Below, one piece after another: positions 26,478-55,714 of a stretch of DNA of 64,000 bases; the stretch's first letter is position 1; each line of letters opens with the position of its first letter. Below the pieces are notes generated by a model, which was not told the origin of the DNA, did no database searches, and saw only the letters and a list, made by a program, of their open reading frames with translations. Source of the DNA: Trissonchulus latispiculum (taxonomy: Eukaryota > Nematoda > Enoplea > Enoplida > Ironidae); assembly GCA_030248195.1 (NCBI GenBank), contig JASAND010000868.1, forward strand, positions 1 through 64,000. The letters are read 5' to 3'. The translations under genes were made by a program, and so were the position numbers.

Positions 26478-26714
26478 GGGGCCGATTTCATAATAAGTTA
26501 CAAGTGTTACAAGTCACAAGTTACAAGCGATTTTGGTTTCACTAAGAGTTGATGACAAGTTACAAGGTACAAGCTACAAGCTGTGTTTTCACAAGTGTCC
26601 TACAAGTACAATTTCCAGTTCCCGTTTCACGAACCCACAAGTTACAAGATACAAGTTCACATGCAACTAAAATATCCTTACAAGTTTACAAGTCGAAGGT
26701 TGTCTTTGTAGGCT

Positions 26715-27170
26715 TTTTTTCTGTACGCCCCACTCCAGTTGTTTTTACACCGGTTAGGAGCAGTGTCAGCTCGGAGATAATTTTGAAAACTTTTGCTGGG
26801 TATTGCTGACACCGAATAATTGTAGTCACAATTATCCGAGGCGTTCATAAGGGTAGCGACTTATCCTTCGCGGACGGTGCGATGAACGTGCCGCGGCAGG
26901 TCCACCCGACGGCGGCCGCCCCTTAACTCGCGGTTAATTGCATACAGTGGGGGGGGGGAATAATCTGTTAACGGCAGGTACCAGAGAAAACAATTCGAAA
27001 GGGGATTCTGGTCCAGCTGGACCAACAGTAGGGGCTCATAAAAGCAGAAACAGACGTATACAGCAAATAACATTCACAGAAACCATAGAGTAAAAGTGAA
27101 AGATGTTTCTCTGTGATTTGATCCTTTGAGCTCATCTTTGAATATTACATAGTTGTATATACATGTTGTA
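26715..27170. other. Anonymous DNA with a GC-rich patch
   Basis: A GC-rich stretch at about 26866-26935 (GACGGCGGCCGCCCC) stands out from its AT-rich surroundings. I could not match it to rRNA or to any gene. Confidence 0.3.
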
Positions 27171-27176
27171 ATATAC

Positions 27177-27562
27177 CAGGGTATTTTTTAGGGATTTTTT
27201 TCCGGGGGGGCTTCGGGGGCCCCCCCCCCCCCCCCGGGGGGGGGAAGAAATTTTCGGGGGGGGGGGAGAAGATTTTTTGCCAAAATGAGCTAAAAAATAG
27301 TATTTTTTGGCGTATTTTGCATGGTGAAACACAAAAGTTCTCAAAAATGCCAGGATTTAAGGTATAAATAGCCATTTTTACGAAAAAATGCGGCGAAGCC
27401 GAAAACATTTTGAAAATTTGTATTTTGGAAAAAATGTGAACCTCATTAAGGGGGCAGACAAAAATCCCAAGGGGGGGGGCGATTTCGGGGGAAGGCGCTC
27501 TTTCGGGGGGGGAAGATTCAATTTCGGGGGCCCCCCCGCCCCCCCCTGTAAAAAATACCCTG
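27177..27562. mobile_element. MITE with G/C-run arms, TSD ATATAC
   Basis: The inverted repeats are CAGGGTATTTTTTA and TAAAAAATACCCTG. The 6-bp direct repeats ATATAC are at 27171-27176 and 27563-27568. Long G and C runs face each other across the centre. The 6-bp duplication differs from the 8-bp ones elsewhere in the window, so the superfamily is uncertain. Confidence 0.75.
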
Positions 27563-28004
27563 ATATACATAGTTGTCTGCCTCAAGTTGTTTCCATCGAA
27601 AACAATGCCTGGAAAAAGAAAGGGGGAGCAAGTTGGAATTTTGCAGCATCTTCCGGCTTAGCGGTGAGCTCTTTTTTACTTTGGTTGTGAAGGGGTAGTA
27701 TTGTGGTTCAGTTGCTGAAGGAAGTCTTAATACGTGACGAGACTGTTCTCCTTTGCTTACTTATTCCAAGGTGCTGGCCTTGTAGGCTTATATTCTGCAA
27801 ACGTTTGATTGTCTGCTAGTCGATTTTAGTCCGTTAACTTTTGCTAAATTTTGAAATTTGTGTTATTTCATTTGTTTTGATAACTTAAACTTTTAATTCT
27901 AATTTTCAATTTTTTATTCATTTTCAACAACACTAACAACAGTAGCAGCAGAAACAACCGAATTTAATCCAAACTAGCAAACACGTTTCAACTATATATT
28001 CTTT

Positions 28005-28541
28005 CTAGGACGTAAGTTTGAACCTTTTTCCAAGTTGCCACTGGGATCTTGGCACTTCGTTATATCCAAAGGTTTCTGCGAATCCTGGCAACGCTTCGGC
28101 GGCAGGTGGAAAGGACTGATAAGCTTCAACTGCAGCAGCGGCACCACTTCCACTAGATCTTTCTGAAATAGGAAACCGATGAGGCAGACCCAAAGAATTT
28201 TCTAGGTTCCAGTTTTCCAGCTTGAGCTTGTAGTTTTTTAGTCGTAGGTTTTCCAATTCGGCACCCATTTTTTCCACCTTCATTTCGTTCAATCGGCTAT
28301 CACATCGGACCGCTGTAGGTGATACATTGTCTGTTAGGCTGTTTGGCTGATACACCACTGTTAGGCGGCGAATGTTAGGCCAAGATGTGTCTCGAACATA
28401 TGTGTAGTCCTTTTCCTTCGGGAAAGCAATACCAATTGATAGGCAGTTGTTGTAAATCTCCTTCCAGCAATTAACTCTGTCTTCCTTGGTAAGAGTTGAG
28501 CTAAAGGATCCAGTCAATTTGTCCTTATTTTCAATAAACTC
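28005..28541 (-). CDS. Myb/SANT-like DNA-binding protein exon with C-terminal coiled coil
   Basis: On the minus strand the frame is open from about 28541 (a TGA lies just upstream) to a stop at 28005-28007. It starts EFIENKDKLTGSFSSTLTKE, then DRVNCWKEIYNNCLSIGIAF and DTSWPNIRR. The spacing of the aromatic residues (F, W, W) and the phrase L-x-G-x-F-S-x-T-L-T-x-E-D fit the Myb/SANT-like trihelix domain of Harbinger-derived and zeste-like proteins. A Leu/Asn-rich helix follows (KMGAELENLRLKNYKLKLEN). The C-terminus is low in charge and ends KRFKLTS. There is no in-frame ATG, so an upstream exon or a decayed start is likely. It could be host or transposon-encoded. Confidence 0.55.
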   Translation of the reverse strand, partial: EFIENKDKLTGSFSSTLTKEDRVNCWKEIYNNCLSIGIAFPKEKDYTYVRDTSWPNIRRLTVVYQPNSLTDNVSPTAVRCDSRLNEMKVEKMGAELENLRLKNYKLKLENWNLENSLGLPHRFPISERSSGSGAAAAVEAYQSFPPAAEALPGFAETFGYNEVPRSQWQLGKRFKLTS

Positions 28542-28546
28542 TCATT

Positions 28547-28900
28547 AATAAATAACTTTCAATAAATCGGACAAACTGTAGTTTTTGGCTAAATGTGGCT
28601 GAAGTATGGGAGCCCATGGATAGTCAAATTAATTATATATGCAATAATGAAATTCTAAATTATAAAATCAAAAAATCATGACCATAACTGTTTTTAACGT
28701 GCTAATTTAAAATTTCTAGTGCAAGTGCACAATGAAATTGTTGGCTTAAAAAAGTGGGATTTTGAAACGATTAAATCAACTTCAAAATTAGGCAATGACA
28801 AATTAGGAAATACAAAAAAGCAACAAAAACTAAAAACGGGACAGAATACGAAAGCTAACACTGCAGAAGTAATACACTCCTTTAACTGAGCAATAACTGC
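28547..28900. other. Anonymous AT-rich DNA
   Basis: Upstream of the minus-strand Myb/SANT frame. I see no convincing first exon or promoter. Confidence 0.3.
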
Positions 28901-29042
28901 TAAGAAAATGCAGCTGAGCAAGAGCATTTTACAGCTTGTAACTTGTAGCTTGTGGTTACAAGTCAAAGAAATTATTGATGAAACCGAATCTAGCACAACT
29001 TGTAGTCACAAGCTAAGTGACACGACACAGCCACTTGTAGTC

Positions 29043-29147
29043 GAAAATTTTGCACATATATATGATCTAAAAAGTGTAGAAATTGTTGTTCAAAAATTGC
29101 TTCAGTAAGCGAATTTACACAGGATTTGAAAATAGCACAATCATTAA
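29043..29147 (+). repeat. Duplicated TDP2 upstream segment, copy 1
   Basis: This ~105-bp segment (CGAAAATTTTGCAC, AGAAATTGTTGTTCAAAAAT, TTCAGTAAGCGAATTTACAC, ATAGCACAATCATTAA) is repeated in direct orientation at about 31018-31122, just upstream of TDP2 exon 1. The two copies bracket the foldback at 29148-30733. Confidence 0.85.
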
Positions 29148-30733
29148 ATTAAAATTAAATCCGGATTTAAAATTAAGTATATAATTCATAGTTGTATAAT
29201 TGAGATCTAGATGTTTTTGTGTTTAACATCACGACTGAGGCGACCAGCGGCAAAACCAATTTTGAAATGAAAGTGAGCTGAGCAACTTTTGTCATAGAAC
29301 TGCATACCCAAAATGGCTGTAGAGTGCTGTGGTGGGGACTTAGGCGATTTCGGGTCAAAAATGAAATTTTTCAAAAGTGGTCAAATTTGGTATAAAATGA
29401 AAGCCTAAGTGAGCTGAGCAACTTATGTCAGAGAACTGCGTACCCAAAGTGGCTGTAGAATGCTGTGTTGGGGTGGGGACTTGGGCGACTTGGGTCAAAA
29501 ATAAAATTTTTCAAAAGTGGTCAAATTTGGTATCAAATGAGAGCTCAAGTGAGCTCAGAAACTTTTGCCATAGAACTGCGTGCCCAAAGTGGCTGTAGAG
29601 TGCTGTGGTGGGACGGGGCGGGGACTTGGGTCAAAAATTTGTCGAAGAACTTTCGACATGGAACCATCCACCAAAAGTCGTTTATGCCTTTATATACTGT
29701 CTCAACCGGAATTTAAAGGATAGACATAGACCCAACACACATATTATCCCCTTTTGTGCGGAGCATTATTGTTACTTGTATATATACATACTACATGTAT
29801 CTCTGAGAATTTCAGCATGTTCAGTTAGCACGTATATAAGTGATGCGAAAAAAAGCATGTCCGTTAGGATAGACGGACCTGCTAGTGGTGGCGGGGGGTA
29901 TATATTACATTACCTCCAAATTCTAGAGGTAGAAGTGGAACCCGCATCGAATAAATATGTTCATGGGGCACAACCCTCCAATCCATATCACTACTTGCTG
30001 TGGTGTAAACAGCTTTAGAGCGGGAGTACTGGCTCCGCTTACTGACGGACTTAGTCACTCACTATATACATAAGTTATGGACCAAAGGCTTTTCTGGATT
30101 GAACTGGGTTGCACAAACAAGCATGCACTGAGGCGAGCCATTTTAATTAACTTTCAGTCGGGCTATTGAATCTGGAATCCCGTATGTACCACACGTAGTC
30201 CGCAGTGGCGTGGCCAGAAAAAAATTTCGGGGGGGCACATCCAAAAATTTTTAACATCTACCCTGATTTTTCAAAATCGTTATTCGCTCGTTTCAGGCTT
30301 TTTTCGCATCACTTATATACGTGCCAACTGAACATGCTGAAATTCTCAGAGATACATGTTGTATGTATATATACAAGTAACAAAAAATGCTCCGCATAAA
30401 AGGGGATAATATGTGTGTTGGGTCTATGTCTATCCTTTAAATTCCGGTTGAGACAGTAAAGGCATAAACGACTTTTGGTGGATGGTTCCATGTCGAAAGT
30501 TCTTCGACAAATTTTTGACCCCAAGTCCCCGCCCCGTCCCACCACGGCACTCTACAGCCACTTTGGGCACGCAGTTCTATGACATAAGTTGCTCAGCTCA
30601 CTTTCATTTCAAAATTGGTTTCGTCGCTGGTCGCCTCAGTCGTGATGTTAAACACAAAAACATCTAGATATCAATTATACAACTATGAATTATATACTTA
30701 ATTTTAATTCCGGATTTAATTTTAATTTAAACG
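29148..30733. mobile_element. Foldback element C (about 1.6 kb)
   Basis: The left arm (about 29148-29855) and right arm (about 30297-30733) are inverse complements. Shared blocks include AATTAAGTATATAATTCATA, GTTTAACATCACGACTGAGG, GGATAGACATAGACCCAACA and GTATATAAGTGATGCG. The left arm holds three copies of a ~140-bp tandem repeat where the right arm has one, so the left array expanded after the palindrome formed or the right one contracted. The loop contains CAGTGGCGTGGCCAG (30203), a hAT-like terminus without partner. Confidence 0.85.
29255..29640. repeat. Tandem repeat, about 140 bp x 3, shared core
   Basis: Units centred near 29283, 29421 and 29562 hold GAGCTGAGCAACTT, CATAGAACTGC(A/G)T, AAAGTGGCTGTAGA(G/A)TGCTG and CAAATTTGGTAT(C/A)AAATGA. 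They are the same family as 16415-17000. Confidence 0.85.
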
Positions 30734-31017
30734 TGTGTATATATACTTGCAGTTGCAAAAACTAATAGAAAGAAAATCCCAGATCCAAGACCTGCAGCAA
30801 CAATCATAACAATAGTAAAAATTGGATAACTCAAATTTTGGATTGATTTGATATTGCCTGTGCTTCTACTACTAATTAAGAATGAGCAGAGGTCAGACAT
30901 ATGCAGGAGGGGAAGTTTTGAGGGAAAACCGGATCTTTCCGGTTTTTTGCCTAAAAAACCGAAAAAATCCGGATTCTGGGGAGGGGTGAGCTCCAGAATT
31001 CGCCTATTTTAGATAAA

Positions 31018-31122
31018 GATCGAAAATTTTGCACTTATGATCTAAAACGTGTGTAGAAATTGTTGTTCAAAAATCGCTTCAGTAAGCGAATTTACACAGG
31101 AATTTAAAATAGCACAATCATT
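31018..31122 (+). repeat. Duplicated TDP2 upstream segment, copy 2
   Basis: Direct repeat of 29043-29147. It lies about 130 bp before the TDP2 start codon, so the copied piece comes from the 5' flank or untranslated region of that gene. Confidence 0.8.
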
Positions 31123-31248
31123 AAGCTACGTAGTCCACTTGTCGTTTAAAACTTGTCAAACTCGTGCTATGCTAAATCTTGCCCTTCTGTCCGCTTCCAC
31201 ACAACGATATTTCCGGTTTTGTGTGTTTTTGTATTCTAGATCATTCCA

Positions 31249-31389
31249 ATGAGTCAATCGTCAGAGTCAGATGGCGATGTGCCTTCTGCTGCAGAGTGCT
31301 CTAAGTTATGCGATCAGTTTGCCGCCATTACTCAAACAGATACGGCCTTAGCCCATTTCTTTCTTCAGGATAACAAATGGGATCTTCAA
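31249..31389 (+). CDS. TDP2: TDP2, exon 1 (UBA-like domain)
   Basis: TDP2 removes 5'-phosphotyrosyl adducts left on DNA by trapped topoisomerase II, in the nucleus. Exon 1 starts at ATG 31249 after an acceptor-like TTCTAG (31240) and reads MSQSSESDGDVPSAAECSKL, then CDQFAAITQTDTALAHFFLQ and DNKWDLQ. The A-x-F-L-x-D-N-x-W-D-L phrase is the second helix of the N-terminal ubiquitin-associated domain of TDP2. The donor CAA|GTAACA (31390) is in phase 0. Joined to exon 2, the UBA domain continues as LGLNCFFAAN, as in other animal TDP2 proteins. The ends of the exon are my inference from splice consensus and homology. Confidence 0.8.
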
Positions 31390-31712
31390 GTAACAATTGT
31401 GGTAGCTCGATTCGTATTAGTAAGAATAATCTTTTAATCGGCCTTATGCTAATGCATGAGCGCAGTATTTCAGTGTTAAGATGGGTTGCTTTCAATCAGT
31501 TGGAATGCTGTTTAGAACTGGGTATCTTTGCAGTGGTGGGGGCTCTCTCTAAATAACCTCCAGTATTATTGGTTCTTCCTGGAGTTATTTGGTTGCCTAT
31601 TCAAATATGTGCAATTGGGCACATTTTCAAACACTTTTGGTCAGGCGGTTTTTGGGTACCTTTTGCGTTTCTCCATGAAAATACTCCTGAAATACTAATT
31701 TTGTTGCTGTTT

Positions 31713-32489
31713 CAGGGTTTTTTTTGAAAATCGGACCTGCGTAAATTTTGCGTATTTTTGTTTTCGTGTGCGTATTTTTAATTTCGACTGCGTAAAATTA
31801 CAAAAATCGCTCCTCAACGTTTATAAAAGCTATAAACGCATTTTGCGTAGACTTAATGCTGTTTTTGGAGAGTTTTAAACAACGTTCAGAATCTAGACGA
31901 TCAGCAGCCTTGCGTGCTCTCTCTGTGGTGTAAGAGTAGGAATGAATAGGTGACGAAAAATATATAAATACGCAGGGGGTCTGGGGGGCGCAGGCCCCCA
32001 GAAGTTGAAGAAAATTTTAAATTTCGGAGTAAATTTGCTTTTAAAACTTTGAAATCTTTGCCTTGAACAGTTTAATACTTAAGTCAATATTTGGTTAGAC
32101 AAATAGAGTTACTGTTCCCTTAATTGATCACATATATATATATATATAAGATTTTAATTTAGATATCACTATATCAAATCAAACTATATCAAATCAAATA
32201 GAAAGAAAAGCATCGCATGGTACAACGTGGGCTTAGGCAGAAAGTATAATTAACTGTAGACGGAAGGAGAATCGAAGAGATATATGGGGGGTCTGGGGGG
32301 AGAGCCCCTCCAGAAGAAGCCAGGAGCCCAAACTACGGTAAATTGTCTCAAGAAATTAATTTAGAGCACTCTAGAAATTCCTACTACCGAATTTTCCGGC
32401 AGCGTATTTTGGTGCGTATTTTTGTTTTTGACTGCGTATTTTTAAGCTCGACTGCGTAAATACGCAGTATTTTACGCAAAAAAACCGTG
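31713..32489. mobile_element. CAGGGTTTTTT hAT-type MITE, complete, TSD TGCTGTTT
   Basis: The ends are CAGGGTTTTTTTTG and GCAAAAAAACCGTG, flanked by perfect 8-bp repeats TGCTGTTT (31705-31712 and 32490-32497). GACTGCGTAAA/TTTACGCAG words cluster near both ends. It is non-coding, lies in TDP2 intron 1 and is the uninterrupted sister of the nested copy at 14208-18438. Confidence 0.9.
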
Positions 32490-32615
32490 TGCTGTTTTCT
32501 AAAATTTCTTCCCCCATTCCCGGACCCGTGGGCCTCCTCCCGACAAATACATTGTTAAAATGTTAGGGCTAAAGCGTGATTAATTTAAATTTATAATTCA
32601 TATGGTTTTACTTAG

Positions 32616-32866
32616 CTGGGTTTGAACTGTTTCTTTGCTGCAAATTCTGTGGAAGATTCACAGCAGCAGCCTCCATGTAAAGTACCAAAGATTGTTGAAA
32701 TTAGCGATGACAGTTCCGGTCAGGATGCAGCAACCTCGTCGAAATTGCCAGGTCCAGAGAATTCCGCTGGTCCCATAGAATTCAGTGTTCTTTCCTGGAA
32801 TATTGACGGCCTGGATCCTGGAAATCCGGGTTCGCGTACTCAGGCAGTTATTGCAATTTTGCAGAG
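32616..32866 (+). CDS. TDP2: TDP2, exon 2 (UBA end, linker, EEP start)
   Basis: After the acceptor ACTTAG (ending 32615) the frame reads LGLNCFFAANSVEDSQQQPP, a Ser/Asp-rich linker with VEISDDSSGQD (which resembles a SUMO-interacting motif), then IEFSVLSWNIDGLD, the first strand and metal/phosphate-binding Asn of the exonuclease-endonuclease-phosphatase domain. The exon ends AVIAILQ plus two bases at the donor CAGAG|GTGCCA (32867). The N-I-D-G-L-D phrase is diagnostic for TDP2 within the EEP superfamily. Intron 1 (31390-32615) is about 1.2 kb and contains the MITE at 31713-32489. Confidence 0.88.
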
Positions 32867-33129
32867 GTGCCACTTGCACTTGCATAATAATGTATACACG
32901 CATGCCACATAGCTTTTTGATAGTTTGCACTTTCTAAATTTGTTTTTAATACTAAACAGTTCTCATACATATGTTTCTAGAAGAAAACGGCAGTTTCTTA
33001 GTAAATATTTATTTTTAGTAAAAGCCAGGACTACCTTTTTTCTAGAACTTTCAACAAGGTAATGATTTCTATTTGTCGTATTTGTCATCATTTGGTTATC
33101 TGTTTAGGAGCTCTTTTGGTTTGTTTTAG

Positions 33130-33367
33130 AGGGTTATATGATGTGATATTTCTGCAAGAAGTTGTTTCTGGTTCTCTGTTTCTTCTCAAGAAATTCTGTG
33201 ATTCCATCCCGGGTGATCGTTACCAGTTGATTGAAGGATTGCTTGATGACCCTTCCGTTCGTCCTGGATATTTCACTGTAATTTTGATTCGTGAGAAAAC
33301 GGTTACCTTATGTGATAAGGCTGTCATACCCTTTCAATCCTCAGTTATGGCACGGGTCATCCTAGAA
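33130..33367 (+). CDS. TDP2: TDP2, exon 3 (EEP core with catalytic Glu)
   Basis: From the acceptor TTTTAG (ending 33129) and completing the split Arg codon, the exon reads GLYDVIFLQEVVSGSLFLLK, then KFCDSIPGDRYQLIEGLLDD and PSVRPGYFTVILIREKTVTL, ending SSVMARVILE. FLQEV carries the catalytic metal-binding Glu (human Glu152), and G-Y-F-T matches the TDP2-specific strand. The donor GAA|GTAAAAG (33368) is in phase 0. Intron 2 is 263 bp. The next conserved block (T-H-L-E-S and G-D-x-N-x-R-D) is not found directly downstream. Confidence 0.88.
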
Positions 33368-33724
33368 GTAAAAGTATGCATTTAAATCGTCTAGCTTGCT
33401 TAGATAGTGGTCTATATGTGTATCATTGAGACGGGAAAGACAAAAATTGATTGGGCATTTTAGGCTAATGCAAAGTAGTATAGGGGAGGGGCACCGCAAT
33501 GCAGTAAGAAAAGAGCCGCGTTGGGTGCTCCTGTGGATTTTTAAAAGCATCGTGGTAGCGGACTATCGAAGCACTTAAATGTCCGGTGAACGGTGGACAG
33601 GCAAGACCTTAATAACTGACATGGTTTCTGCTTTCCGCTTCTCCATTAATACTGATCTGAAGTGTCCTCATCCTCTGAAGCAGACTTTACTAACAGCCAA
33701 TCAGAATGAGCCAAACTTAGCTTG

Positions 33725-33895
33725 CTTGAGCGACCCCCTCCCAAACGGGGACCTCTTTCAGCGACCCCCGCCCAAACGGGGACCTCTTTCAGCTACCCCC
33801 CCCCCCCACCGCACGGGGACTACTTTTGGCTACCCCGTCCCCACCAAACGGAGGGGTGGTATACCTGTCGACCCCCCCCCAACGGGAGGGGGACA
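33725..33895. repeat. C/G-rich tandem repeat in TDP2 intron 3
   Basis: The unit CAAACGGGGACCTCTTTCAG with a CGACCCCC lead occurs about twice exactly, followed by two to three degenerate versions (GCACGGGGACTACTTTTGGC). Open frames across it are proline/threonine artefacts. Confidence 0.7.
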
Positions 33896-34180
33896 TTGGC
33901 TTATTGTGGTAGGTGCATCGTTGCGCAATGCCAAGAAGAGGAGCCCTCTAGTGGTTTACTCCTCTTCTAATATTATAGATGAAAATCATGGACTCTTGAT
34001 ACGACGTTTTCGTGTTTTTTGTCAATCGTTCAGGATAACAGAAAGAGTACTGCAGGTCTTGTTTTATTATGGTCCAAAAGCAGCCGATTTTCCAAAATTC
34101 TTACTTTGAGAATTCACAAAAAAATCCGTCGTTCAATGGAATTGCACTAAAGTAACTCTTCGCACTCTGCAATATTATAG

Positions 34181-34888
34181 GCTCTCGCGCTCCCCTATAA
34201 CATGGGTGTAAAAGGCTCAGTGCGGCCTTTGGATACTAATTCGAGCTCCGTGCCAGCTAAATACTCAACGAAACTACACAATTTTGGTATCGTTAGAATC
34301 TACACGACGAGTACTACAAGTCGCAAAAAAGCTTTGGTCAAAATTTCCAACTTTGAAAATTTTCGCTTCCGGACAAGTTAGGTCCGTTTGTTTTTTTCCG
34401 TGTAAGTCACGCTTGGAAAAATGCAATTTTCTGTCGGAGTGTTAGAACGATCTGGGCATTTTCAGCAGGCGAAGTTTTTTCTGAACGTATTAGCCCAAAA
34501 GTGAACCTTTTGATATTTTTTCGCTGCCCGGCCAGACCAGCCGTCTGTACGGCCGGCCAAAAGTGGACTTGGCGCTAAAATGGCCAAAAATGGCCAATTT
34601 TTTGTCAAAGCTACAGGACTCAGGGAAGATGCTAGAGAGACGCAGTTTGTTGCATAAGGATCTTCGGAAGGGTTTATATGTCCTAACTAGGGCGATTTTC
34701 GATATCTGTCCCGGATCGTTCAGGCGGCCGGCCCAAAGTTGGTCCGGCCAAACAGCCATTTTCGGAAAATTTCTAAGTCCCAACTCTACAGGAAATAGTC
34801 AAAAATAGGCCTAAATATGCTGTTTTGGGCCATCTAGTGGGACGCATATAAGGGTTATCCGGGTCGCTGAACACGATGAGCATAGTTA
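34181..34888 (+). repeat. Dispersed repeat with GC hairpin junction, copy 1
   Basis: It runs from GCTCTCGCGCTCCCCTATAA through GGCTCAGTGCGGCC, a GGCCGGCC-containing centre and ends near GATGAGCATAG. A near-identical direct copy lies at about 35232-35945. The minus and plus frames at 34490-34808 are matched in the second copy (35496-35868) but differ by indels. They show no domain. Confidence 0.88.
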
Positions 34889-35231
34889 TTCAAGCTACAA
34901 AACACCCTTGTGAGACATCAAAAGAGAGAAACCCGAAAAAACATCACTTTCGTAAGCGATTTTTGGCGCAACTTTTTAACGGAAAGTGTTAGTTACGGGG
35001 ATGAAACATCCCACATATACTAAACTCGACACGTCCAAATTTTTGCGCATATATATAATTCGGGTGGAGCTTCCTTAAATGGTGTTCAATATTTTAGAAG
35101 GGTATAATATGGGAAGGAGAAAGAAAGGGTGGAGAAGAAAAAGTTTGGAAATTTATTGATGGGGAAGTGTGAAAATGGTGGGGGGTTGATGTGAGAAAAA
35201 AATTATGGGGGGGGTTGTTTGGTTTTAGAAG
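34889..35231. other. Spacer between the two long direct repeats
   Basis: Part of it (about 34983-35050: TTTAACGGAAAGTGTTAG and ACTAAACTCGACACGT) resembles the inverse of about 15270-15345. The rest is purine-rich with no gene. Confidence 0.45.
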
Positions 35232-35945: not shown

Positions 35946-36239
35946 TCGCAGCGCTGTGCGGTGCTGCTATCGTGCTGTACTGTTATGCAGCAACCATAGC
36001 ACGCTGTCTGTAGACTTACTGTAAACGGCTAAACATATGAAACTTGGTGAAAAGTATGTCTGTAGTAAGGAGGAACTGTAGCTATGTTAGTTAGTGCACT
36101 CTGTAGCTTCCACCGTGCTGTATGTGCTGCCCCAAACACAGCACAGTCGATAACAAGTAATTCATTCGTCACTGGTATTTGAAATTCGGCATACAGATTG
36201 TTTAGGACATGACAAACTATTATAGATACGTTTTGTATA

Positions 36240-37215: not shown

Positions 37216-37422
37216 ATATACAGTAACTAAAACTATTGCAGCCATGGGTACTGGATGTTGGATTTCTGTCAAAATAGAGAAAAAGGAAGAAATTGGAACT
37301 TTTCAAGCTTCTTTGTTCTGTACTTTCGGTTGACGATTAATGATTGGCGGAATTTTTAAAGTTTCTTTCACACAGCTTTAACGTTTTTGCTTTTTACTGA
37401 GAACCTTAAAAATGAAATAGGA

Positions 37423-38121: not shown

Positions 38122-38297
38122 TATACGTAAACCCTCTCTCATTTTCGAATCTTTTCTCATTTAGACATTTGTTGGTTATCCCCTGCTTGCAAACAACTTT
38201 ACGAACCTTCAATGTCTATAGAAACTGACTTCTCCGAAATTTATGTATAGGTCGGTAGGTATACAGACAGACAGATATCACTTCCCACCCGCTACCT

Positions 38298-38887
38298 GGG
38301 GCCGGTTCCATAAAACTTCGCCTCGCATCCTAGTACTAGCATGTGAGAACTCTCAGTGCTAGCGCTTGTCGTCGAGTCAAGTGTACCATAAAACGTTTTA
38401 GCGAACGAAATTAGCTGAGCGAGTGCCGCAACTCGACAAGCTAGCAGTGCTAGTGCGAGCACTAGTGCTGCGAGTGCGAGTTAGAATGCAGTGTATCATA
38501 ATTATTTAAAAAATTGTGACTCTTGACTACTTTAATCATACTACAATTCAGTAATGAGTAGAAAATAATAATAAATAACCATAAAAATTTGAGCACAAAC
38601 TGACGAAGCAAAAAAAGTAATTAAATGTTTTTCGATCAGTTCTCTAGTCAAAATAGACTAGAGAACTAGACGGATGCTAGCAGCGTACTAGCAAGGCAAG
38701 CCAAAAGTTTCATGGAACCCGATTAATCTGCTAGTTTTCAAACTTGCGAGAACTAGACTCGCAAGTTGAGTGCTAGCAGCAACTCGACAACGAGGGTTTT
38801 ATGGTGCAGTTGTTGCGCTAGACTCGACAACTAGCATGGATCTAGCTGTCGAGTCTAGTACTCGCAAAGTTTTATGGAACCTGCCCC
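38298..38887. mobile_element. GGGGCCGGTTCC MITE with CTAGC/ACTCGA arrays
   Basis: The ends are GGGGCCGGTTCCATAAAACT and the inverse GTTTTATGGAACCTGCCCC. Both halves are filled with CTAGCA, ACTCGACAA, AGTGCTAG and GCGAGTG words in both orientations. It is non-coding. A CCTGG repeat may be the target duplication (38295-38299 and 38886-38890) but overlaps the termini. It is structurally like the elements at 26481, 46894 and 55225. Confidence 0.75.
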
Positions 38888-38989
38888 TGGTGAGCTGATA
38901 ACGAGGCCTCTCCGCAGATATATTCATGATCGGTAACTTCGGGCCGGGCTTTCCCCGCATAGAAAACTGAACCAGGTAATTACCCTCTG

Positions 38990-39240: not shown

Positions 39241-39243
39241 TAA

Positions 39244-40790: not shown

Positions 40791-40849
40791 TATATATATA
40801 TATAACTGCATATCCAAGATTACGGTGCTGGTTGGCTTTTAAAATAGCC

Positions 40850-41250: not shown

Positions 41251-41393
41251 ACATTTTTCCGTTTCAGCAAATACATTCAGTTGAACTAGAACGTTTTCAT
41301 CCAGCTTGTTTGCGGTAGCTAGCTTTGCTTACATTGTATATAAATGCAACTTCTCTGACATGATTTTCTCTGCAGCGGAAAAATAAGCGAAAC

Positions 41394-42162
41394 TAGGGGG
41401 GAAAATGCCCTCGACGGGCAACCAACTTGGTAGAATAGGGAAAGACTTGAATGTTAAATACACGGTGCATGGTTACAACTGAGATTCTGCTGAAGCGGAA
41501 AAATGCCGTTTCTCAGCGACTAAAATGACAGAAACCAGCTTTGTGCGCCGAATAGGGAATCTACTCGGCGACTAAAATGAAAGAAACCAGCTTTGTGCGC
41601 CGAATAGGGAATCTACTCGGCGACTAAAATGAAAGAAACCAGCTTTGTCGCCGAATAGGGAATTCCCTCCTTCCGCCCTATTCGCGCGAACTTATCGTCT
41701 TTCGGGAGGAAATATATAGGTAATTATTCTGTTAGGAACTGCAAACGTAAGCATTGCGCTCAATATGACATTTCCCGTACCGGTTGCGTGGATTCTAGGG
41801 CTGGGGTGGCGCTAGATTAATTTCTTTTTGAGCTACCTAATCCGTAAATATTTTATGCATACAACCGCTAGCAGGACCAACAGAAAGCAACAATAAGTAT
41901 ATATGCAGTTTAAACAATTTGTGGTCGACAGTCCTTGTGCTAAAACATATACAATCAATCGCATTTCATTTAATAATATTATCAATTCCGCAATCAGCAC
42001 AGAGCACACCTATTTCATTTTATATAACCACTGGCGCGAATAGGAATCACCGCAAAAAAATGTCTGAATAGGGAATTCCCTCCTTCCGCCCTATTATGTG
42101 TTGCTTTGCTGAATAATGAGAGAGCTCAGCAAGAATCAGAATGCACAGAGCACACGTAACAA

Positions 42163-42228
<66 letters not shown>

Positions 42229-42898
42229 GATTCCCTATTCGGCGCACAAAGCTGGTTTCTATATATAGGTGTGCTCTGTGCTGATCTTGCCGAGAATTGA
42301 TACAATCAAACATTATATGAAATGAAATGCGATTGATTGTATATGTTTTAGCACAAGGACTGTCGACCACAAATTGTTTAAACTGCATATATACTTATTG
42401 TTGCTTTCTGTTGGTCCTGCTAGCGGTTGTATGCATAAAATATTTACGGATCAGGTAGCTCAAAAAGAAATTAATCTAGCGCCACCCCAGCCCTAGCCTC
42501 CACGCAACCGGTACGGGAAATGTCATATTGAGCGCAATGCTTACGTTTGCAGTTCCTAACAGAATAATTACCTATATATTTCCTCCCGAAAGACGATAAG
42601 TTCGCGCGAATAGGGCGGAAGGAGGGAATTCCCTATTCGACGACAAAGCTGGTTTCTTTCATTTTAGTCGCCGAGTAGATTCCCTATTCGGCGCACAAAG
42701 CTGGTTTCTTTCATTTTAGTCGCCGAGTAGATTCCCTATTCGGCGCACAAAGCTGGTTTCTGTCATTTTAGTCGCTGAGAAACGGCATTTTTCCGCTTCA
42801 GCAGAATCTCAGTTGTAACCATGCACCGTGTATTTAACATTCAAGTCTTTCCCTATTCTACCAAGTTGGTTGCCCGTCGAGGGCATTTCCCCCCCTAG
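41394..42898. mobile_element. Giant foldback D (arms about 610 bp) with AT microsatellite centre
   Basis: The left arm 41394-42005 and right arm 42283-42898 are nearly perfect inverse complements, ending CTAGGGGGGAAAATGCCC and its inverse. Each arm includes three ~50-bp units with CTTTCATTTTAGTCGCCGAG. Between the arms a further partial repeat (CCCTCCTTCCGCCCTATT near 42070) and an AT dinucleotide run (about 42163-42226) occupy the centre. No coding region and no clear target duplication are seen. A solo arm lies at 19191-19518. It sits in TDP2 intron 3, 170 bp before the last exon. Confidence 0.9.
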
Positions 42899-43067
42899 TT
42901 CTGTTATGAAACTGCATGTTCAGTTGTTTAGATCTGGAACTTCTGTCGACATGTCACTAATTCCAGTATATATGTGGAATGAAGTCCAGAACTGGGCGTT
43001 GAAAAGCACAAATTCTAAATTGAATCATTTGCATACGTACATATATATTGTGTTTTGCTTTATTCAG

Positions 43068-46893: not shown

Positions 46894-49303
46894 GGGGTCT
46901 ATTTCTTTAAAGATTAAACGGATTAGATTAAAATTAATCCACATTAAAGAAATAGCTAGCAGGATTAAACGGATTAAATTTTAATCCTGCGAGTTAAACG
47001 AGTTAAACGAGCTGCTTTTAATCCGACCTTTAATCCTGTTTCTTTAATCATGCAGGATTAAAATATTTAATCCAACCCTATTTCTTTATTATTTCGCAGG
47101 ATTAAAAATGAGAGAGTTAATTTTAATCCGGCCGCCGTAATTTCTATTTCTTTATGGATTAATTTTAATCCGTTTAATCCTGCTGGCTAGTTTTGAACTG
47201 ATTTTTAATCCCCGTGCTGCTACGGAGGTTAAACGGATTAAAAACTAAAACAGCGAAAAGTTGCATTTACAATCAGCAACTGCATATATAGACGGCGCTG
47301 TCACTGCCGTAATGACACTTGCTACATTTTCATTGGACATTTGATGTTAGTGTTGAGCTTAGCTATTCTTAAAAACATAACGTTTACGTTAGTTAAATAA
47401 GATTCTGCTAAAAAATACAAAAGTTATTTTCTCAAAATTGCTAACCGTTTTAAAAACTGTTAGCAAACCAAAGCAAAGTTTATAACAGTTTTTTATTATA
47501 TACATATTTCTCCTGTTACTCAAGCCGGACAATAGAAGCAAGGTGTCATCGCACAGGCAAATTAACCGAGTCGTTTCTAATTTTTAGTCACTGTCTCATC
47601 CATAGGCTGTAAGATTAAAAACGTTTATCCCTAATTGCGACCAGCATTTTCAGCGATTCTGAAGTATCTACCATGCAAGCGGAAGGGTTGCCATTTAGCA
47701 CAAATGTGTTACACACACATACCCCGGGACTCCTTTTTATTTGCTCCTCTTTTTTCGCTTTCTAGCTAAAGTGGTTGCTTGACAAAGTTGGGAAAAACAG
47801 GCAAACTTCAGGTTGTGCATACATTTTAGTTAATTTCCAGATTTCCAAACGACCAAATTTTTGTGTCACCAAACCCGTGTCACCTAGAAATCAATTGGCC
47901 AACGCCTAACAGTGGTTATTTCGAAAAAAGCCAAAAAGACTGTTGTTTGCTACTATTATGTATTCGGACTTGCTAATCTTGGCCAACATTTTCGTGTTGA
48001 TTACTTTGCTAACCGAAATGATATTTGATATAAGTCATATTAATTACAGATTCTCAGATTTTTCCTTTGACATCGGACTGCCCCAGCAGAGTTGGCGGTG
48101 GGTGCCGCGATCCGTCCAGGTCCGGACTCAAACATAGAGAAACCATAAAAATTTAGTAAACTTAGGTATTTGCAAGAGTTTATAATAGGAAGAGTAAGAC
48201 ACTCAGTTCTTATAGAATAAGCTTGCAATATGCTCGAAGCATCAAGGCCGAAATCTCGGGGGGGTCTCAGAGTGTAAACATGCAACGCTGACCTTTTTCA
48301 AAAACGGGCGTTTTTGCCAAATTAAATACTACAACATGGGCTAGCAAGATCGCACAGTAATAATTTTTATATGATTATGGTGCGTTGAACGAGATCTTTT
48401 TAACGGTATAAAAACTATGTAGTTAGTTTTAGTCAATCTCTTACAAAACCTCCTTTCTACGAATTCAATTCAATAGTTCAATCGGCAGTTCAATAAATAT
48501 TGTCGAGATACGATAAGTTTCCGCTTCGAAAATCATTTTTAGAGTTTTTGAGATTTTTTAGGAAACAAAAGATGGCATTTTTATGCGAAGAAGGCCTGGA
48601 AGAAATAAGAAGTTCGTTGTAATCTATTCTGCTGAAAAGTTCTGATTTAGGAGTCGTGAAGCATAATGGTGCTCTGACATTCGATTTTTGATTCAGCTGT
48701 TCATTATTTACTTTCATGCTGTTTTTACTCCGTTAGTTTATACTAAAGTTATAAAAAAGCTGGATAGCAAACGGTCTTTGATACAGAAACCTTTTTTCAC
48801 GAAATCGGTGACAAATTTTTTGGTTATTTTTGGTATACAATTCTTGCAAATCGAAGGAACTAGAATAAACTGAATTTTTCGAAATAAAAAGACATTATGT
48901 TGCCATTCGCTTTAGTGCTACTGGAAGCACACCCACACCAAATTTCAGGGCAACTGGCAAGTTTTGCGCTTTAAGTAGTGCAAGGGCTAATTCGTAGTTT
49001 CCAAAAACTATTTCCAGTTAACTAATCCCAGCAATAAAGAAATAGCGTTTGAATTAGTTTTTGACCCGTGGATTAAAATCCTGCAGGATTAAAACTTTTA
49101 ACTTCTATTTCTTTATTGCAGGATTAAACGGATTAAAATTAACTCGTTTAATCTGCGAGTTAAAACAGCAGGATTAAACGAGTTAATTTTAATCTGTTTA
49201 ATCCTTTTAATCCTACAATAAAGAAATAGAGGTTAAAAGTTTTAATCCTGCTGGTTTTTAATCCGTTTAATCCGACCATTTTAATCTTTAAAGAAATAGG
49301 GCC
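46894..49303. mobile_element. GATTAA-array transposon, 2.4 kb
   Basis: The left end GGGGTCTATTTCTTTAAAGA and right end TCTTTAAAGAAATAGGGCC are inverse repeats. Inside each end is an array of GGATTAAA / TTTAATCC / GAGTTAAACG words (about 46910-47215 and 49060-49290). The central 1.8 kb has no recognisable gene but is related to 1400-2560. A CTA next to both ends may be a 3-bp duplication. The right ~35 bp is identical to the left end of the short element at 55225-55714, making the latter a probable deletion derivative. Confidence 0.75.
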
Positions 49304-52053
49304 TAGGACTACTAAAAATTAAAAATAGAAAGAACTTTTACACGTAACAGCCCCAGATAGGCCCAAACCGATAGGTGTCCGACCGCCAGCCTGAGCACCA
49401 CACGACACCTCGGCCGGCCGCCGTCTAGCCGTCTGGGCGACAAACACTAATGCAGACCTTGCTGTGTTTATGTTCAATCCTAGAAGGATTTAATTCAAAT
49501 CCCGTATAGGCTCTCTTCAAATGACTACTTTTCTACCTGATTTGGCTTTAAGATCATTGTTTGAGGAGCCTTTCTGTGTAATAATGAACTGTACTGTTTG
49601 TGAATATTTGCCAGCAAATTTCTGCTATAAATATTTCAAACGTTTACTGGAAGAATGATGAGAACTGGTATCCCTAAAGTCTTAACTCAAATCCTCTTTT
49701 GTGTCTAAGCCTTACCAGCTTACGCAAATCTCCAAAGTGAGCAGTCCTGCTGCTGTAATGTTTTGTTTTGGCTGTGCACATTTGTATTGTAATTATAGTT
49801 GATTTCTTTTGTCCTGGAATTCGAAATTAAAACAGTTGTCTTTTCCAGTCCTTGTGGCAACGGTATTAGGCATCGCTAGTATAGCCTGAAAAGAGTAAAA
49901 GGGAAGAGGTGGGAAAAGAATTTTTATCTTTCAGTGTTCAGCTTCAAGGTTGTCGCAGCTTTGAAAACGGCATTCTCCACAAATTGTTAAAAGACCGCAC
50001 AGACAAAGCCTTGCAAATAATTCCTCACAGGTCTTGTCTTGTCAGCTCTTCAAATTAGGCGTCTCTGTCAAAAATATCTAGGTCCCAACTCCCAATCCGA
50101 TCGATCCTTTGAGACTAAACTTCCGAAGTGACGGGACGGAGTCTTAGTTGTCAGTCAAAACGTCGAATATTTTTTGCGACATCCCAGCTGTGAGTTCCAA
50201 GCATATGGAATTATTATAAAAACATGAACTCGGAATGATAACTGAAAACCCAGTTGGTCTAAAAAATCTAAAGTTAGCATCTCTGAGAACGTCAGAAACT
50301 TCCCTGCCAGGATATGGAAATTATTTGTGACTCACAAATTCAAAATCTCTGTGGTTATAATTCTTAAATCATATGTTACAGCTACAAGTTTCTGTTCAAC
50401 TCAAATGTGAAATATTTTCCGCTTGTGATTTATTGGGTTTTCTTTCGACATTCAACTTCAATATCGATTCGATTATTTCACATCTGGTTTGCCTGTGTTC
50501 AAAGTCTCAATTTTTCTTAAAGCAACCTTTTTTTAAAGCTTTTAAGGTTTGTACGACTGATTTGGAAGGCGATTAAATTCATGCTAGCCTAATCAATGTC
50601 TTGGTCGGAAAAAACTGCTAGATGTCAGGTCTACTGCTCTTTCAGCTACGAATCCCTCAAAAGCAAAGAGACAGAGCTAAAAATATTAGAACGTGATGAA
50701 CGTGATGCGGTTGACTGATCGGACTAACTTGAAACTTTTTGTATATACAAACTCAAGTTATAAAATTGTTAACCGATTGACAATAACAGTGACTCGCAAA
50801 AATGAAAGTTGACCGTTTCATTTTTAATTCCATCCCATCCATGAAGAAACAGAAATTCCATCATCATAAATTTGATGTGAGCAATCTGCTGTGTTTCATT
50901 CAGCCTGCATGTTAGTGATATGAAAATTGTATGTTAAAAGAGGAGCGATTAATTGGAACCAGGGAAATTTGTGTAGCTGGAAGTAAATTGAAATACTCAG
51001 GCTAGTTAAGCCAACATTCCATCAATCAGGGAGAGCCAGGGCTTCCTTCCATCTCCCCTTCATTGGCAGTATCAGTCCCCTCTCATTCTTTTCCCAGTTG
51101 TTCTTCTATTAAGTCAGCCCAGTTTGAGATTTAAAGTTGAGATTAAACAAAAGTTTCTCCATATTCTGTGATTTGTTTACTCGATTTGTCTGTTAGGTTT
51201 CGCCACTTCGTCAATGCATTCATTCGGTCATATATATGCTTATTCCCGATAACCAGTGTGCGCGCCTCTTTTCAAACCTTTCTTCTTCCTGTTTTGGTGT
51301 TCGATCCTTTCTTACTGCAGTGCTTCCTGCTTCCTTTGTTTGAGTCATGCTTGAGTACGTCAGCGTAGACGATCTCAAACGTCGGTGAGACCTCATTCGT
51401 AGGAATACCTAGGAGGTTTGTGCCAAAGAAAATGGCTTCGGTGTTATGCAATATTGCAAACGACGTCGGAACACTCTATCTCTTTTTTGTCGATCTGAAG
51501 AGGCATGGGATCTGCAGTCCGCCTGCACCCCTCCCTCACATTATATATCCCATACTTGTAGCATTTTTCTGCTTTTTAAAAAATTGTTGCATAAAGCATA
51601 AATTAGCAGGATTTTATTATGCAACAGTTTTGGAAAGAGCAGAAATATATAATGCTGCAAAGTTATCAAATCAGCTTTTTAATTTTATTATAGCTATAAC
51701 TAATTGATAAAATAAATAATAAACTACTAACCGTAAGCCTTGAGCTATTATAATTAGCAAAATGGCGAGCAGACAAGCGTTTACACTAAGGTTTGTATTT
51801 AATGCAAAGTGAGACCCCGGCAGTTACGGAGGGCACGAGTTAACGCACCGAGCGTGCCTAGCATGCCAGTTTGTAGGGTTTCAGGTCATAGCGTTCACAC
51901 TTCACATCAAGTTCATAGAAGTGTTGAGAGTTTCTTACTCTTACCTATTTTGCACTCTTGAAATTATTAAAATGGGTAAATTAGATATATAAGGGTTCAA
52001 GTTGAAAACAGCAATAGCTTTATGTAGAATATGCCGTTGCATATGCATGTAAG
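49304..52053. other. Anonymous DNA
   Basis: A short GC-rich patch lies at 49380-49440. No protein family, RNA gene or element end is recognised on either strand. Open frames are under 100 codons and AT-biased. Confidence 0.35.
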
Positions 52054-53138
52054 CAGAGTTGTTCTGATGGGCCGGGTCCGGGCCCACTGACTGACTCTTC
52101 TGGGCCGAGCTCGGTGCCGGGTCGGGCTCGGTCTGGACACGGCCCGGACGGTCCAAACCAATCCCGTCATGATACGAAATCCAAAATCTGACAACTCAAA
52201 TTTACACATAAATTTACTGGAATTTTTTTATGCAAACAGCTTTTAAAAAACATATGGGTTAAGATATGGGTTATGGTTTTAGCACGACAGTTTATCAGGC
52301 TGAGCCTTATCTTATACTTTTCGCCTTGCCCTTAATGTATCTATAGTGTCGGAAAAATTTAATTTTATGTGAAAGTGTTAAGTTTTATACCGTATACCGT
52401 TGCAACAAATGTTTTACCTACCTTTATTCACGATTGTGCTTAACTTTTGAAACTTGATTTGTTGCATCAGAATGCAAAATATCTGCTTCGATTTATGCGT
52501 TTATGACACCTTCTAATTTCCTGGAATTCTACTTCGACTACTCTCAGCTCCTAAAAGACACTTCCTCTCATCTGTGATACTGATATTATGCCTTCAAGGG
52601 ATCGCTCAATAAGTAGTAGTAATATATAATAATTGAAATAACAACCTAGGTTCCGTTGTATTAGACATTGCAAATAAACTGCTTGAAAGTGCAAGAATAA
52701 ATTTGGACTACTTTGTCTATATGCATGCTTTCAGGCTGTCATGCTTGCCGTAGAAGAGTTGTGCCGTAAGAAATCTTCCGGGCTGGGCCCGGGCCCGGGC
52801 CTGCTGAACCGACCGGCCCTTGCCTTGGGTCGAGCCCGGAGGCCCGATTCAAGGCTTGGTAGGCCCGGTCGGCCCGGCGGCCCGATGTAGGCCCGATCGG
52901 CCCGGCGAAGGCCCGGCATACAAAATACAGTGACAAACAATAGATACTAGATAGTGCCATTTATTACAACCTAAGCAACTCCTGGAAGCTTAAATTCGAC
53001 TAATGCAGAGAATTTGGAAAAATTATGACATTTGCACAATAAAAATTTGACCGGGCCTGCTGATCCAAGAACCTGCTACAGGCCCGGCCCGGGCCCGGCC
53101 CGGAGCCCGAGGCCCGATTCAAGGCCCGGGCACAACTG
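52054..53138. mobile_element. GGCCCG-array element
   Basis: AGTTGTTCTGATGGGCC at 52054 and GGCCCGGGCACAACT ending about 53135 form an inverted terminus. GGCCCG / GGGCCG words form arrays at 52068-52150, 52780-52920 and 53050-53130, very GC-rich against an AT-rich centre. It is non-coding; the frames at 52731-52960 are array artefacts. No target duplication was resolved. Confidence 0.6.
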
Positions 53139-55224
53139 AGTAGGTACCTATATAACTCGCCTTACTGTTGCTACGTATATACGCTTGGTCGACCAATTAG
53201 TATATAACTTCTTATTTTGAAAACACACAAGTGCAGCACACATGTTATCTGGCAGCTCGCACTAAAGCAATTTGCTTCAACAATACATACCACTGCTAAT
53301 TTGTCAATCGTAGATGGATGCTCCTTCAAGTTTTTACATCATATCAAAGCATTGACAGGAATATAGCGTTAATTGTAGACGTTTTTGATTAAAGATTTAC
53401 TGATGTCAAAGTCAAACTACCTCATATTAAGCGTAATAACGTGTATTTGCAAGTTTGGAAAATATGTCGCATTGTATATACACATTTGCAGTACCGCAGC
53501 ACTCGAGACGCCATTCCTAGTTCCTATAAGGGTGATATTCCTTCATTGGTCTTGGGGGTTAATATGTAGACGAAATCCTGAGACGTGTAAATAAATCAGG
53601 GCTGTACGATGAATATAATAAGGAAAGGATGTGCGTGCAATGCAAACCGCATAATTTTAACGGCACTTATTCTTAACTATTAAGGGGGGCTACTTGGGTC
53701 AAAAACCCGACCCTCTCCGATTTCGCTCAAATTGTGTATTGATACTCATCTCATCAGGGTCCTACACATACCATTGAAATTTGAGGCGATTTCGTCCAGG
53801 AACAAAAAAGTTACAGTCATTCAAAATTTCCAATTTTTATTGAAAAGTGGCCCAAAATAGGAACTTTAGATTTTTCGCTTCTGGCATTACGATAACTTAC
53901 TCAAATCAAAACCGTTCGAACCGCTTTATGCCTCATTTTGTAGCTAAATAAAATATCTAAAACTTGTTGAAGAGATTTTTTTCAAAATTCGGTTTTTGAC
54001 TTCTGTCGTAATCGTTTCTGTGAGACAACCCCAAAAATAACTGAAAATTATTCTCGATCGATCGATCCTGCTGCATACTTAGCTGCCATGTAACGAGACA
54101 TTCCTTCAAATAATTAGGAGTTGCTGATGCAAACGAGATTTAAATTTTGCTTCCCGTTCACCCATGTTCTTGAATGAAATAGATTTCAAAGACTGGTGGA
54201 TTATATTCTACTTTATGAGGCAGTGTATGTGTCAAAAGACAGTTTACTATTATTCGAGAACTAGAGCTGAGCTGACAGACGTCATGATGAAAGCTTACAA
54301 TTAAAGTATCCTGCATTGTCAAAGTTGGCAAAATTACGCACGTAAGCTATACCTCAAGTTAGCCCTTTTTAAATAGCGTTTTAGAAAGAATTGCAATTAT
54401 TCTTGGTTTTCAGTTTCCACCATTTCTTACAATTAAGATTCAGAGTTTCCTCCTACTTAAATATATATTAAACATTGTGGACAGCTGGAATATATGTGTA
54501 AATTATACAAAGAATTATACAGACAAGACGGCATTCTAATTATTTGAGCTAAGTTTGGAATAGTTTTGCGAGACTAGATTTCTAAGAGAAATGACCCAAT
54601 TTTTCCAATCACGGTTCATTTACAGCCTGATTAAGGTGTTACCCTTTTCATGATGTTTTTTGAGGGCATCTGTCCGCTTTCGCTATAAATTAGGGCTAAG
54701 ACAGCGTACTTGAACTGAGGAAGAAGTATAACGGAGGGAATTAATGACCATGCGAAATTGGTTTAGTTAACTCACGCATCGTCTGTTCTCTAAACTTGCT
54801 CAAATTTACCAGATATTTTTTGCTTACCTTTTTGTCATTAGTATCTGAGATAATTACTCAAATATTTCTGCGTGTCTGAGTAAGTAACCTGAATCAGTAA
54901 ATGTCGCCACTTACGGCGCAGTGCCCCATTGTGCATATCCTTTACCAGGTCCGAGTACAAAATCCGGGTACCTGATATAACCCTGTAACTTGCCCTGTTC
55001 AAATATCGTGACTACTTTTTGAAACTTTAGCTATTTCTGTTTATGTGGCTGTTTTTGTTAAACTGATATGTAAATCAACTACACTTAATGGACATTAAGG
55101 GAGCCAATTTACTGCCTAATGGCGAGTTATGAATGTAGTCGTTGCTGTGAGTTGCTTTAGAGTCTTCTTTTTGATATTTCAAATATACCTGACTGGCAAT
55201 CCAAGCTGCTGAAGACAACACTTT
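53139..55224. other. Anonymous DNA with a TTAAGGGGGG element end
   Basis: At about 53680 TTAAGGGGGGCTACTTGGGT resembles the TTAA-bounded end of the palindrome at 24210 (TTAAGGGGGGGGGCTACT). The following ~330 bp is the text style of a decayed DNA element. The right end was not found. The rest is anonymous. Confidence 0.45.
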
Positions 55225-55714
55225 GGGCCTATTTCTTTAAAGATTAAAATGGTCGGATTAAAATATTAAAAATCAGCCGGATTAAAATGTTAACGGCTGT
55301 TTCTTTATTGTAAAATTAAGCTGATTAAATTTAACGCATTTAATCCGAGCATATCTAATCCTCTGATTTCCGCCAACTTTTAATCCTTTTAATCTGCGTA
55401 GGCTTGAAAACTAGTTGAAAATACCGGAGACGGGTTAAACGGACTAAAATTTATATTTAAAGAAACATCGCTTAAGCAGGTCGGATTAAAATTAACTCTT
55501 GCATTTTTTAATCCGAAGAGGGAAAAAACTGGACTAGATTAAAATTTTAATCCTAGGTGCATTGAAGAAACAGGATTAATTTTAATCCATTTCACTCGTT
55601 TAACTAGCTGCATTAATTTTTAATCCGTTTAATCCGAGGTATTATGTATTTCTATACTGCAGATTAATTTTAATCTAATCCGTTTAATCGTTTAATCTAT
55701 AAAGAAATAGGGCC
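55225..55714. mobile_element. GATTAA-array MITE, 490 bp
   Basis: The ends are GGGCCTATTTCTTTAAAGAT and ATCTATAAAGAAATAGGGCC. The interior is GGATTAAA / TTTAATCC words throughout, with AAAGAAA spacers. It has no coding capacity and is related to 46894-49303 by its terminal sequence. Confidence 0.85.

Follow-up and report, generated by a model that had tools for sequence, protein, structure and literature searches.

GGCC-ended transposons with family-private word arrays in the genome of the nematode Trissonchulus latispiculum

Five GGCC-ended elements and their word arrays

The window analysed here is a stretch of 64,000 nucleotides (contig JASAND010000868.1, positions 1 to 64,000) of Trissonchulus latispiculum, whose own genome assembly, here G000, comprises 734 Mb in 21,732 contigs. 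It holds five elements (E1 to E5) of four families that have an end frame GGCC-NN-TTYC in common and carry arrays of short words near their ends, and E1, E3 and E4 are flanked by matching target duplications. The places, the resemblance of the ends and the arrays are much as the original prediction, made from the letters alone, had described them. The elements and their parts are as follows.

23630 to 23632 and 23856 to 23858: TTA/TTA duplication of E1
23634 to 23854, + strand: E1, a short element with ends GGCCGTATTCACC and, inward from the right, GGCCGAAAAATT
26480 to 29015, - strand: E2, left end GGCCGATTTCATAATAAG, flank CCAGG; a transposase-deleted, inverted derivative of the family of the full-length copies L050 and L053
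26499 to 26692, + strand: left word array of E2 (TACAAG 11 times, ACAAGT 10 times)
26724 to 27778: stretch of E2 (1.06 kb) without counterpart in L050, with a poly-G foldback at about 27165 to 27570
28005 to 28600 (upper limit approximate), - strand: Myb/SANT-like gene remnant in E2, with an open piece at 28008 to 28541
28935 to 29039, - strand: right word array of E2 (TACAAG 5 times, ACAAGT 4 times)
38295 to 38299 and 38886 to 38890: target duplication CCTGG of E3
38300 to 38885, + strand: E3, ends GGCCGGTTCCATAAAA and, inward from the right, GGCAGGTTCCATAAAA
46891 to 46895 and 49303 to 49307: target duplication CTAGG of E4
46896 to 49302, + strand: E4 (2.4 kb), ends GGTCTATTTCTTTAAAG and, inward from the right, GCCCTATTTCTTTAAAG
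46962 to 47242: left word array of E4 (GGATTAAA 13 times)
49070 to 49273: right word array of E4 (GGATTAAA 10 times)
55226 to 55713, - strand: E5, an internal-deletion form of the E4 family in the opposite orientation

Around E3 and E4, where 5 bp are duplicated, the initial G of GGGCC is part of the duplication, and it is with GGCC or alike that the element itself starts. The bare pattern GGGCC-NN-TT[TC]C, previously proposed as the common start, fits three places (26479, 38299 and 55225), which is a chance-level number (1.07 expected, maximum 5 in 100 simulations) and not significant alone, and both E1 (GGGCC-G-TATTC) and E4 (GGGTC) deviate from it; the elements are distinguished by having inverted ends, short duplications and arrays together. 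The flanks of E5 do not match (CTTTG vs CATAG). Positions 154-471 of E5 correspond to 13-349 of E4 reversed (72%) and positions 1-122 to 2277-2409 reversed (81%), and to judge from this alignment E4 and E5 are a single family in which E5 is internally deleted. A possible sixth array element, into which E1 would have inserted, lies at 23248 to 23945 (GATTGGA 4 times, GGATTG 5 times; right end GGATCGGCCC followed by CTG); it has no matching left duplication and is not claimed as an element.

The words were picked after inspection and counted against 300 dinucleotide shuffles. ACAAGT occurs 10 times at the left end of E2 (0.61 expected, maximum 5) and 4 times at the right (0.29 expected, maximum 3), and the middle of that element has none, with TACAAG there 2 times against 1.0 expected. 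E3 holds 11 copies of CTAGCA (0.67 expected, maximum 4), 7 of CTCGCA and 5 of ACTCGA. For GGATTAAA, 0.06 and 0.07 copies were expected at the left and right ends of E4 (maximum 2), with none found in its middle, and E5 has 10 (0.13 expected, maximum 2). The words of E1, ACCAGTGG and TAACCA, are weak, ACCAGTGG being present in 2 copies. A stricter test, in which the commonest k-mer of the whole element was compared with the commonest k-mer in 200 shuffles, was passed by E3 (6-mers, 11 vs at most 7), E4 (8-mers, 23 vs 17) and E5 (8-mers, 12 vs 7) and failed by E1 (4 vs 5 in the shuffles); E2 as a whole fails it because its poly-G/C insert dominates. The claim that one word fills the ends of each element holds for E2 (ACAAGT), E3 (CTAGCA/CTCGCA) and E4/E5 (GGATTAAA) and is weak for E1, and, as E4 and E5 are one family, the word differs from family to family and not from element to element.

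In E2, E3 and E4 the words are mixed in orientation and unevenly spaced, except at the left end of E2, where 11 of 11 TACAAG copies point in the same direction. A microsatellite or tandem origin of the arrays was rejected: fixed ends are present, the copies do not run head to tail, and Tandem Repeats Finder reports merely short, low-scoring rows within them (scores 42-66). That the arrays arose as side effects of slippage and unequal repair at the element ends, and serve no function, is very improbable. Those short rows and local tandem stretches such as AATCAGTAATCAGT in the sister family L054 would fit such an origin, but mixed orientations, irregular spacing and the confinement of the words to the ends in E2, E3 and E4 do not, nor does the recurrence of one word in L050, L053 and E2 and of another in the further loci L047 and L055.

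Full-length copies and sister families

The family of E2 is represented elsewhere in G000 by L050 and L053, both 3.5 kb long with 24-bp perfect ends and 13 copies of TTACAAG each. Between their two arrays of the ACAAGT word they carry a DDE_Tnp_4 transposase gene (an open frame of 376 aa in L053) with exons of a Myb/SANT-like gene on both sides of it. The duplication is CCTGG/CCTGG in L053 and GCAGG/CCAGG, with inner CAG/CAG, in L050. In the protein database the transposase matches best, at 50% identity, a HARBI1-like protein from the nematode Romanomermis. The L050 Myb protein lies below the cut-off (0.02), yet is alignable with those of the sister families L052, L054, L056 and L057.

Three segments of E2 align with the L050 element: 28354-29015 with 53-711 (91%), 27779-28333 with 2747-3302 (95%) and 26480-26723 with 3284-3527 (97%). 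The transposase part is lacking, and at the right end nothing corresponding to the outermost 52 bp is recognisable. The Myb remnant is 89-95% identical to the L050 and L053 exons and, compared with L050, shows a frame-shifting insertion near its start and the loss of the transposase-bearing intron. By sequence comparison, E2 is a transposase-deleted, inverted derivative of the L050/L053 family. Among 187 candidates in the protein database none matched the remnant at E 10 or better, and a single-sequence fold (pLDDT 36.6; the first ~27 residues in the wrong frame according to L050) was not used. In the middles of E2 and E4, a Pfam search covering 10 of 12 frames gave a single weak, irrelevant match, the viral contig collection that was scanned yielded no confirmed relative, and one match to a Bacteroidetes contig in the genome contig collection, with no words in the 1.1 kb read, was taken as chance. 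In the PDB comparison, rows below rank 4 were unrelated folds.

The genome-wide collection by terminal sequence that the original prediction had proposed was run for the E4 end. With up to 2 mismatches, its 20 bases match 2,753 forward and 2,681 reverse places in the 734 Mb (5,434 in all), against 26 forward and 16 reverse (42) for the reversed control. Twenty E4-type end pairs were picked from the listed places, with preference for long ones. Together with E4 and E5 this makes 22 copies, in which the 5 bp at the ends are identical in 15 and the inner 3 bp in 17; the duplications include CTAAG, CTTTG, CTATG, CTGTG, CAAAG and CTAGG, and neither identity holds in L012, L014, L020, L021 and E5. 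Because the 20 additional copies place the duplication outside, a 5-bp GGGCC target duplication, considered for E4/E5 from the direct GGGCC at both ends of the window elements, was dropped, and the asymmetric base is a property of the element end: in 14 short copies (L016-L029) GGCC at one end is paired with GCCC (in L029, TCCC) at the opposite end, and which end has which follows the orientation of the element. No coding sequence was recognised in E4. Three E4-family end pairs stand in tandem on contig C771 (21409-23211), spaced by 615 and 634 bp. Nested in one copy of this family, L010, is an element that belongs to another family; its ends read GGCCTTTTCGCGAATGGGT, its duplication is CTAGG/CTAGG, and its end set has the word GAGTTAAA 16 times. 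At 3140-5575 of L010 a third level of nesting is formed by a foldback made up of AGGAACAG words that encloses a TTCTAGAA array.

A scan for end pairs over the window and the leading 10 kb of each of twenty contigs (C5 to C400) gave 8 pairs, compared with 0-2 in five simulations, and 3 of the 8 have arrays: E4, L049 of the E4 family, and L047. The last represents a new family, whose ends read GGCCTATTTCATAAAAC and which has the duplication CCAGG/CCAGG and 21 copies of ACAATTGTA. Further kinds of single ends occur in L038, L040 and L045.

With 150 of its 194 candidates in G000 scored, the DDE_Tnp_4 profile has at least 144 matches there; Myb_DNA-bind_5 has 40, of which 15 stand no more than 3 kb from a DDE match, each of them on the opposite strand (by eye from the tables). 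Eight DDE loci, picked by score or by a nearby Myb match, were read. Own ends, an own transposase and an own Myb gene are present in each of L052 (word CTACTGAA, 19 copies), L054 (TACTGATTA, 24) and L056 (CTTATAA, 15). L055 has ends and a word like those of L047, a transposase and an incomplete Myb gene with later exons only; L057 has a TTA/TTA duplication, both genes and a weak word; and L051 has a transposase without an array or ends of its own. Three Myb-linked loci, L058, L059 and L060, were read at one end only, L060 stopping at the contig end; the Myb frame of L058 is broken. E values for DDE_Tnp_4 are 3.6e-41 (L053), 4.2e-38 (L052), 1.3e-34 (L054), 1.3e-33 (L055) and 6.8e-31 (L056), and those for the Myb/SANT match are 5.3e-9 (L052), 1.8e-6 (L054), 4.8e-18 (L056) and 4.1e-17 (L057).

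The DDE nuclease and Myb/SANT protein expected of full-length copies are therefore present in the ACAAGT family, L052, L054 and L056, while coding copies or partners of the E1, E3 and E4/E5 families were not found among the copies read; nor did these copies show unrelated transposases, unrelated duplications or mere microsatellites, named beforehand as contrary outcomes. Two side observations concern these genes. At position 5755 of L051 an E4-family end lies 2.3 kb from the intact DDE_Tnp_4 frame, a candidate association, and on contig C20104 (31718-36414) two transposase-plus-Myb units, 3,156 bp from each other, look like a tandem duplication.

Placement in the PHIS superfamily and a proposed division of labour

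The elements appear to be Nuwa/PIF-Harbinger-like members of the PHIS superfamily (PIF/Harbinger, Nuwa, Pangu, ISL2EU and Spy). Full-length copies have the DDE_Tnp_4 transposase and the second, Myb/SANT gene, which is found in all PHIS groups but ISL2EU and Spy. E2 alone among the window elements is linked to such copies, and E1, E3 and E4/E5 are placed by their ends and duplications. The TWA duplication that had been predicted, typical of PIF/Harbinger sensu stricto, is a minority, seen as TTA in E1 and L057, which resemble classic PIF/Harbinger in this, and not in E3, E4, L047, L050, L053, L054 or L056, where CWG or C-NNN-G is found instead. CWG is duplicated in E3 and L053 (CTG) and in L050, L047, L054 and L056 (CAG); L052 has CTGG, L055 CTGGG vs CCTGG, and E2 CAG on the left only.

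Already known (PMC4482050, in part) are the superfamily with its pair of genes, its GG(G) ends and targets of the CWG and C|TNA|G types. As described there, NuwaI of animals, with its CWG duplication, ends that are usually GGG, DDE transposase and Myb/SANT gene, resembles the E2 family, E3, L047, L054 and L056; these differ in the 5-bp CCWGG reading of E3, L053 and L047 and in having private word arrays at their ends, and the term 'subterminal' was not found in the main text of that paper. NuwaII, with its C|TNA|G target, GG ends and the same 3-/5-bp ambiguity (PMC4482050, in part), resembles the E4 family and the inner element of L010, but E4-family targets are broader (CTTTG, CTATG, CTGTG, CTAGG), C-NNN-G sites only part of which are CTNAG among the 15 of 22 copies with 5 identical bp, and no coding copy of the E4 family was found. 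Zebrafish Harbinger3_DR likewise has two genes, and in the part of the report consulted its Myb-like protein recognises a 9-bp subterminal motif (PMC9710019); here, in contrast, word copies number up to 13 or more at an end, and the word changes from one to the next of many sister families in a single genome.

The sequences show a frame GGCC-NN-TT(T/C/G)C in common and 3-bp duplications, often inside C-NNN-G. The roughly 200-350 bp next to each end are packed with private words that point either way, among which an inner end motif (TTKCAYNAA in most families) is repeated. Full-length copies combine a DDE_Tnp_4 transposase with an oppositely directed Myb/SANT-like gene. We consider it probable (roughly 0.8) that these are two-gene cut-and-paste PHIS transposons with gene-less offspring, in which the Myb protein reads the family word and the transposase reads the frame. 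The Myb/SANT protein would bind the word of its own family many times per end and bring the transposase into the nucleus and onto both ends, where the transposase would cut at GGCC and insert into C-NNN-G. The word would be the candidate Myb site, and the inner motif together with GGCC the candidate transposase sites. Gene-less two-ended copies (E3, E4, L047) could be mobilised in trans provided that they retain frame, inner motif and word. A precedent exists in Harbinger3 and mPing, for which the consulted parts of the reports describe two required proteins, the Myb-like one binding the ends and carrying the transposase to the nucleus and to them.

A matrix of 15 words by 16 end sets is almost diagonal. 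The exceptions are ACAAGT, common to L050, L053, E2 and the sister L058 and present once in L055; TTACAAG (3 in L056); GAGTTAAA (3 in E4); CCACAAG (2 each in L050, L053 and E2); ACAATTGTA, in both L047 and L055; and the 6-mer CTAGCA, found 1-2 times in six other sets. The inner part of the terminal repeat recurs among the array words (TATTTCTTTA in E4, CCATAAAA in E3 with 5 copies, TTTCAYNA in E2). Across the 16 end sets the motif TTKCAYNAA, picked after the ends had been seen, equalled or exceeded at least 197 of 200 shuffles in L050, L053, L058, L052, L054, L059, L060, L056, L055, L047 and E2; L057, E4 and E3 have no copy of it, and in E1 and the L010 inner element it is weak; the inner motifs of these sets differ. 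L052, L059 and L060 have the inner motif GTTGCATAAA in common and different words.

This last observation bears on whether the transposase itself, by an N-terminal helix-turn-helix (HTH), binds the words, with another role, such as nuclear import only, left to the Myb protein. Galileo of the P superfamily provides the model, with multiple transposase sites published for its long ends and many short binding words near both (PMC3688188, in part). Weak HTH matches below the cut-off in the L054 and L055 transposases (HTH_23, E 1.8e-4; HTH_Tnp_4, E 2.6e-4 and 1.1e-3) would agree with it. CACTA and Ac elements likewise have many such words near both ends, and the transposases, ends and duplications of these and of Galileo are unrelated to those of the present elements. 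Against binding by the transposase, L059 and L060, whose transposases were not read, have the inner motif of L052 and not its word, which makes the inner motif a better candidate than the word for what a conserved transposase would bind; moreover, the demonstrated binder of the subterminal motif in Harbinger3, in the part of the report consulted, is the Myb-like protein. We regard this alternative as unlikely.

Less likely still, the words could be sites of host transcription factors, the arrays driving expression or tethering the elements to host chromatin. The words are short, GGATTA resembles a homeodomain site, and gene-less elements keep their arrays; but the words are family-private and present at both ends, and the sister pair L050/L058 keeps ACAAGT while the two preceding bases change and the Myb protein diverges to 68%.

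Returning to Myb binding of the words, such binding and a coevolution of word and protein are suggested by the sequences: when a family splits, word and Myb protein would change jointly while the frame read by the transposase stays, and the private word would keep families apart. Tests of the correlation between Myb divergence and word divergence were mixed. A broader and more tentative idea, to which we give somewhat less than even odds, is that the genome holds a self-documenting code of protein-DNA recognition, with dozens of families, each a reader plus a word array that change together while the terminal frame stays constant, mutually blind and each with its own gene-less followers. To our knowledge, the site code of Myb/SANT readers (trihelix, MADF, Zeste-like) is poorly known, common as these readers are. 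If the Myb proteins do read the words, each element prints a word beside the gene of its reader, and the code could be taken from genome sequences and verified in vitro; it would also offer a way for families of one superfamily to separate, the frame and inner motif remaining constant while address word and reader shift, and the group would be a natural test of how DNA-binding proteins choose sites. Within the reach of our literature search, it is new that a single genome holds many sister families, every one with a dense word of its own, and that the inner motif is shared while the word changes; at the level of titles and abstract starts, most subscription papers and Repbase reports lying outside the search, no description of family-private words was found.

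Other features of the window

Two LINE-type copies (7567-11496 and 20361-22244), with endonuclease, reverse transcriptase and RNase H matches in a profile search, and numerous foldback repeats mark the window as eukaryotic; the best named matches of one LINE copy come from a barnacle, a nematode and a spider. About 2 kb downstream of E2, exons of a host gene lie on the + strand at 31257-33385, with a UBA_4 match (E 8.2e-9) followed by pieces that we take to be TDP2 (tyrosyl-DNA phosphodiesterase 2)-like, of which the one at 33005-33385 has no Pfam match. A large foldback at 59237-61253 contains an array of CGTGCAATTTTGAAATTGCACG-like palindromes, and as its ends are not of the GGCC type, array-built elements exist outside the GGCC-ended group. 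Repeated CCCTATTC words occur in another foldback, at 41391-42900 (arms of 585 nt, 99%), of which part is present once more at 19200-19500.

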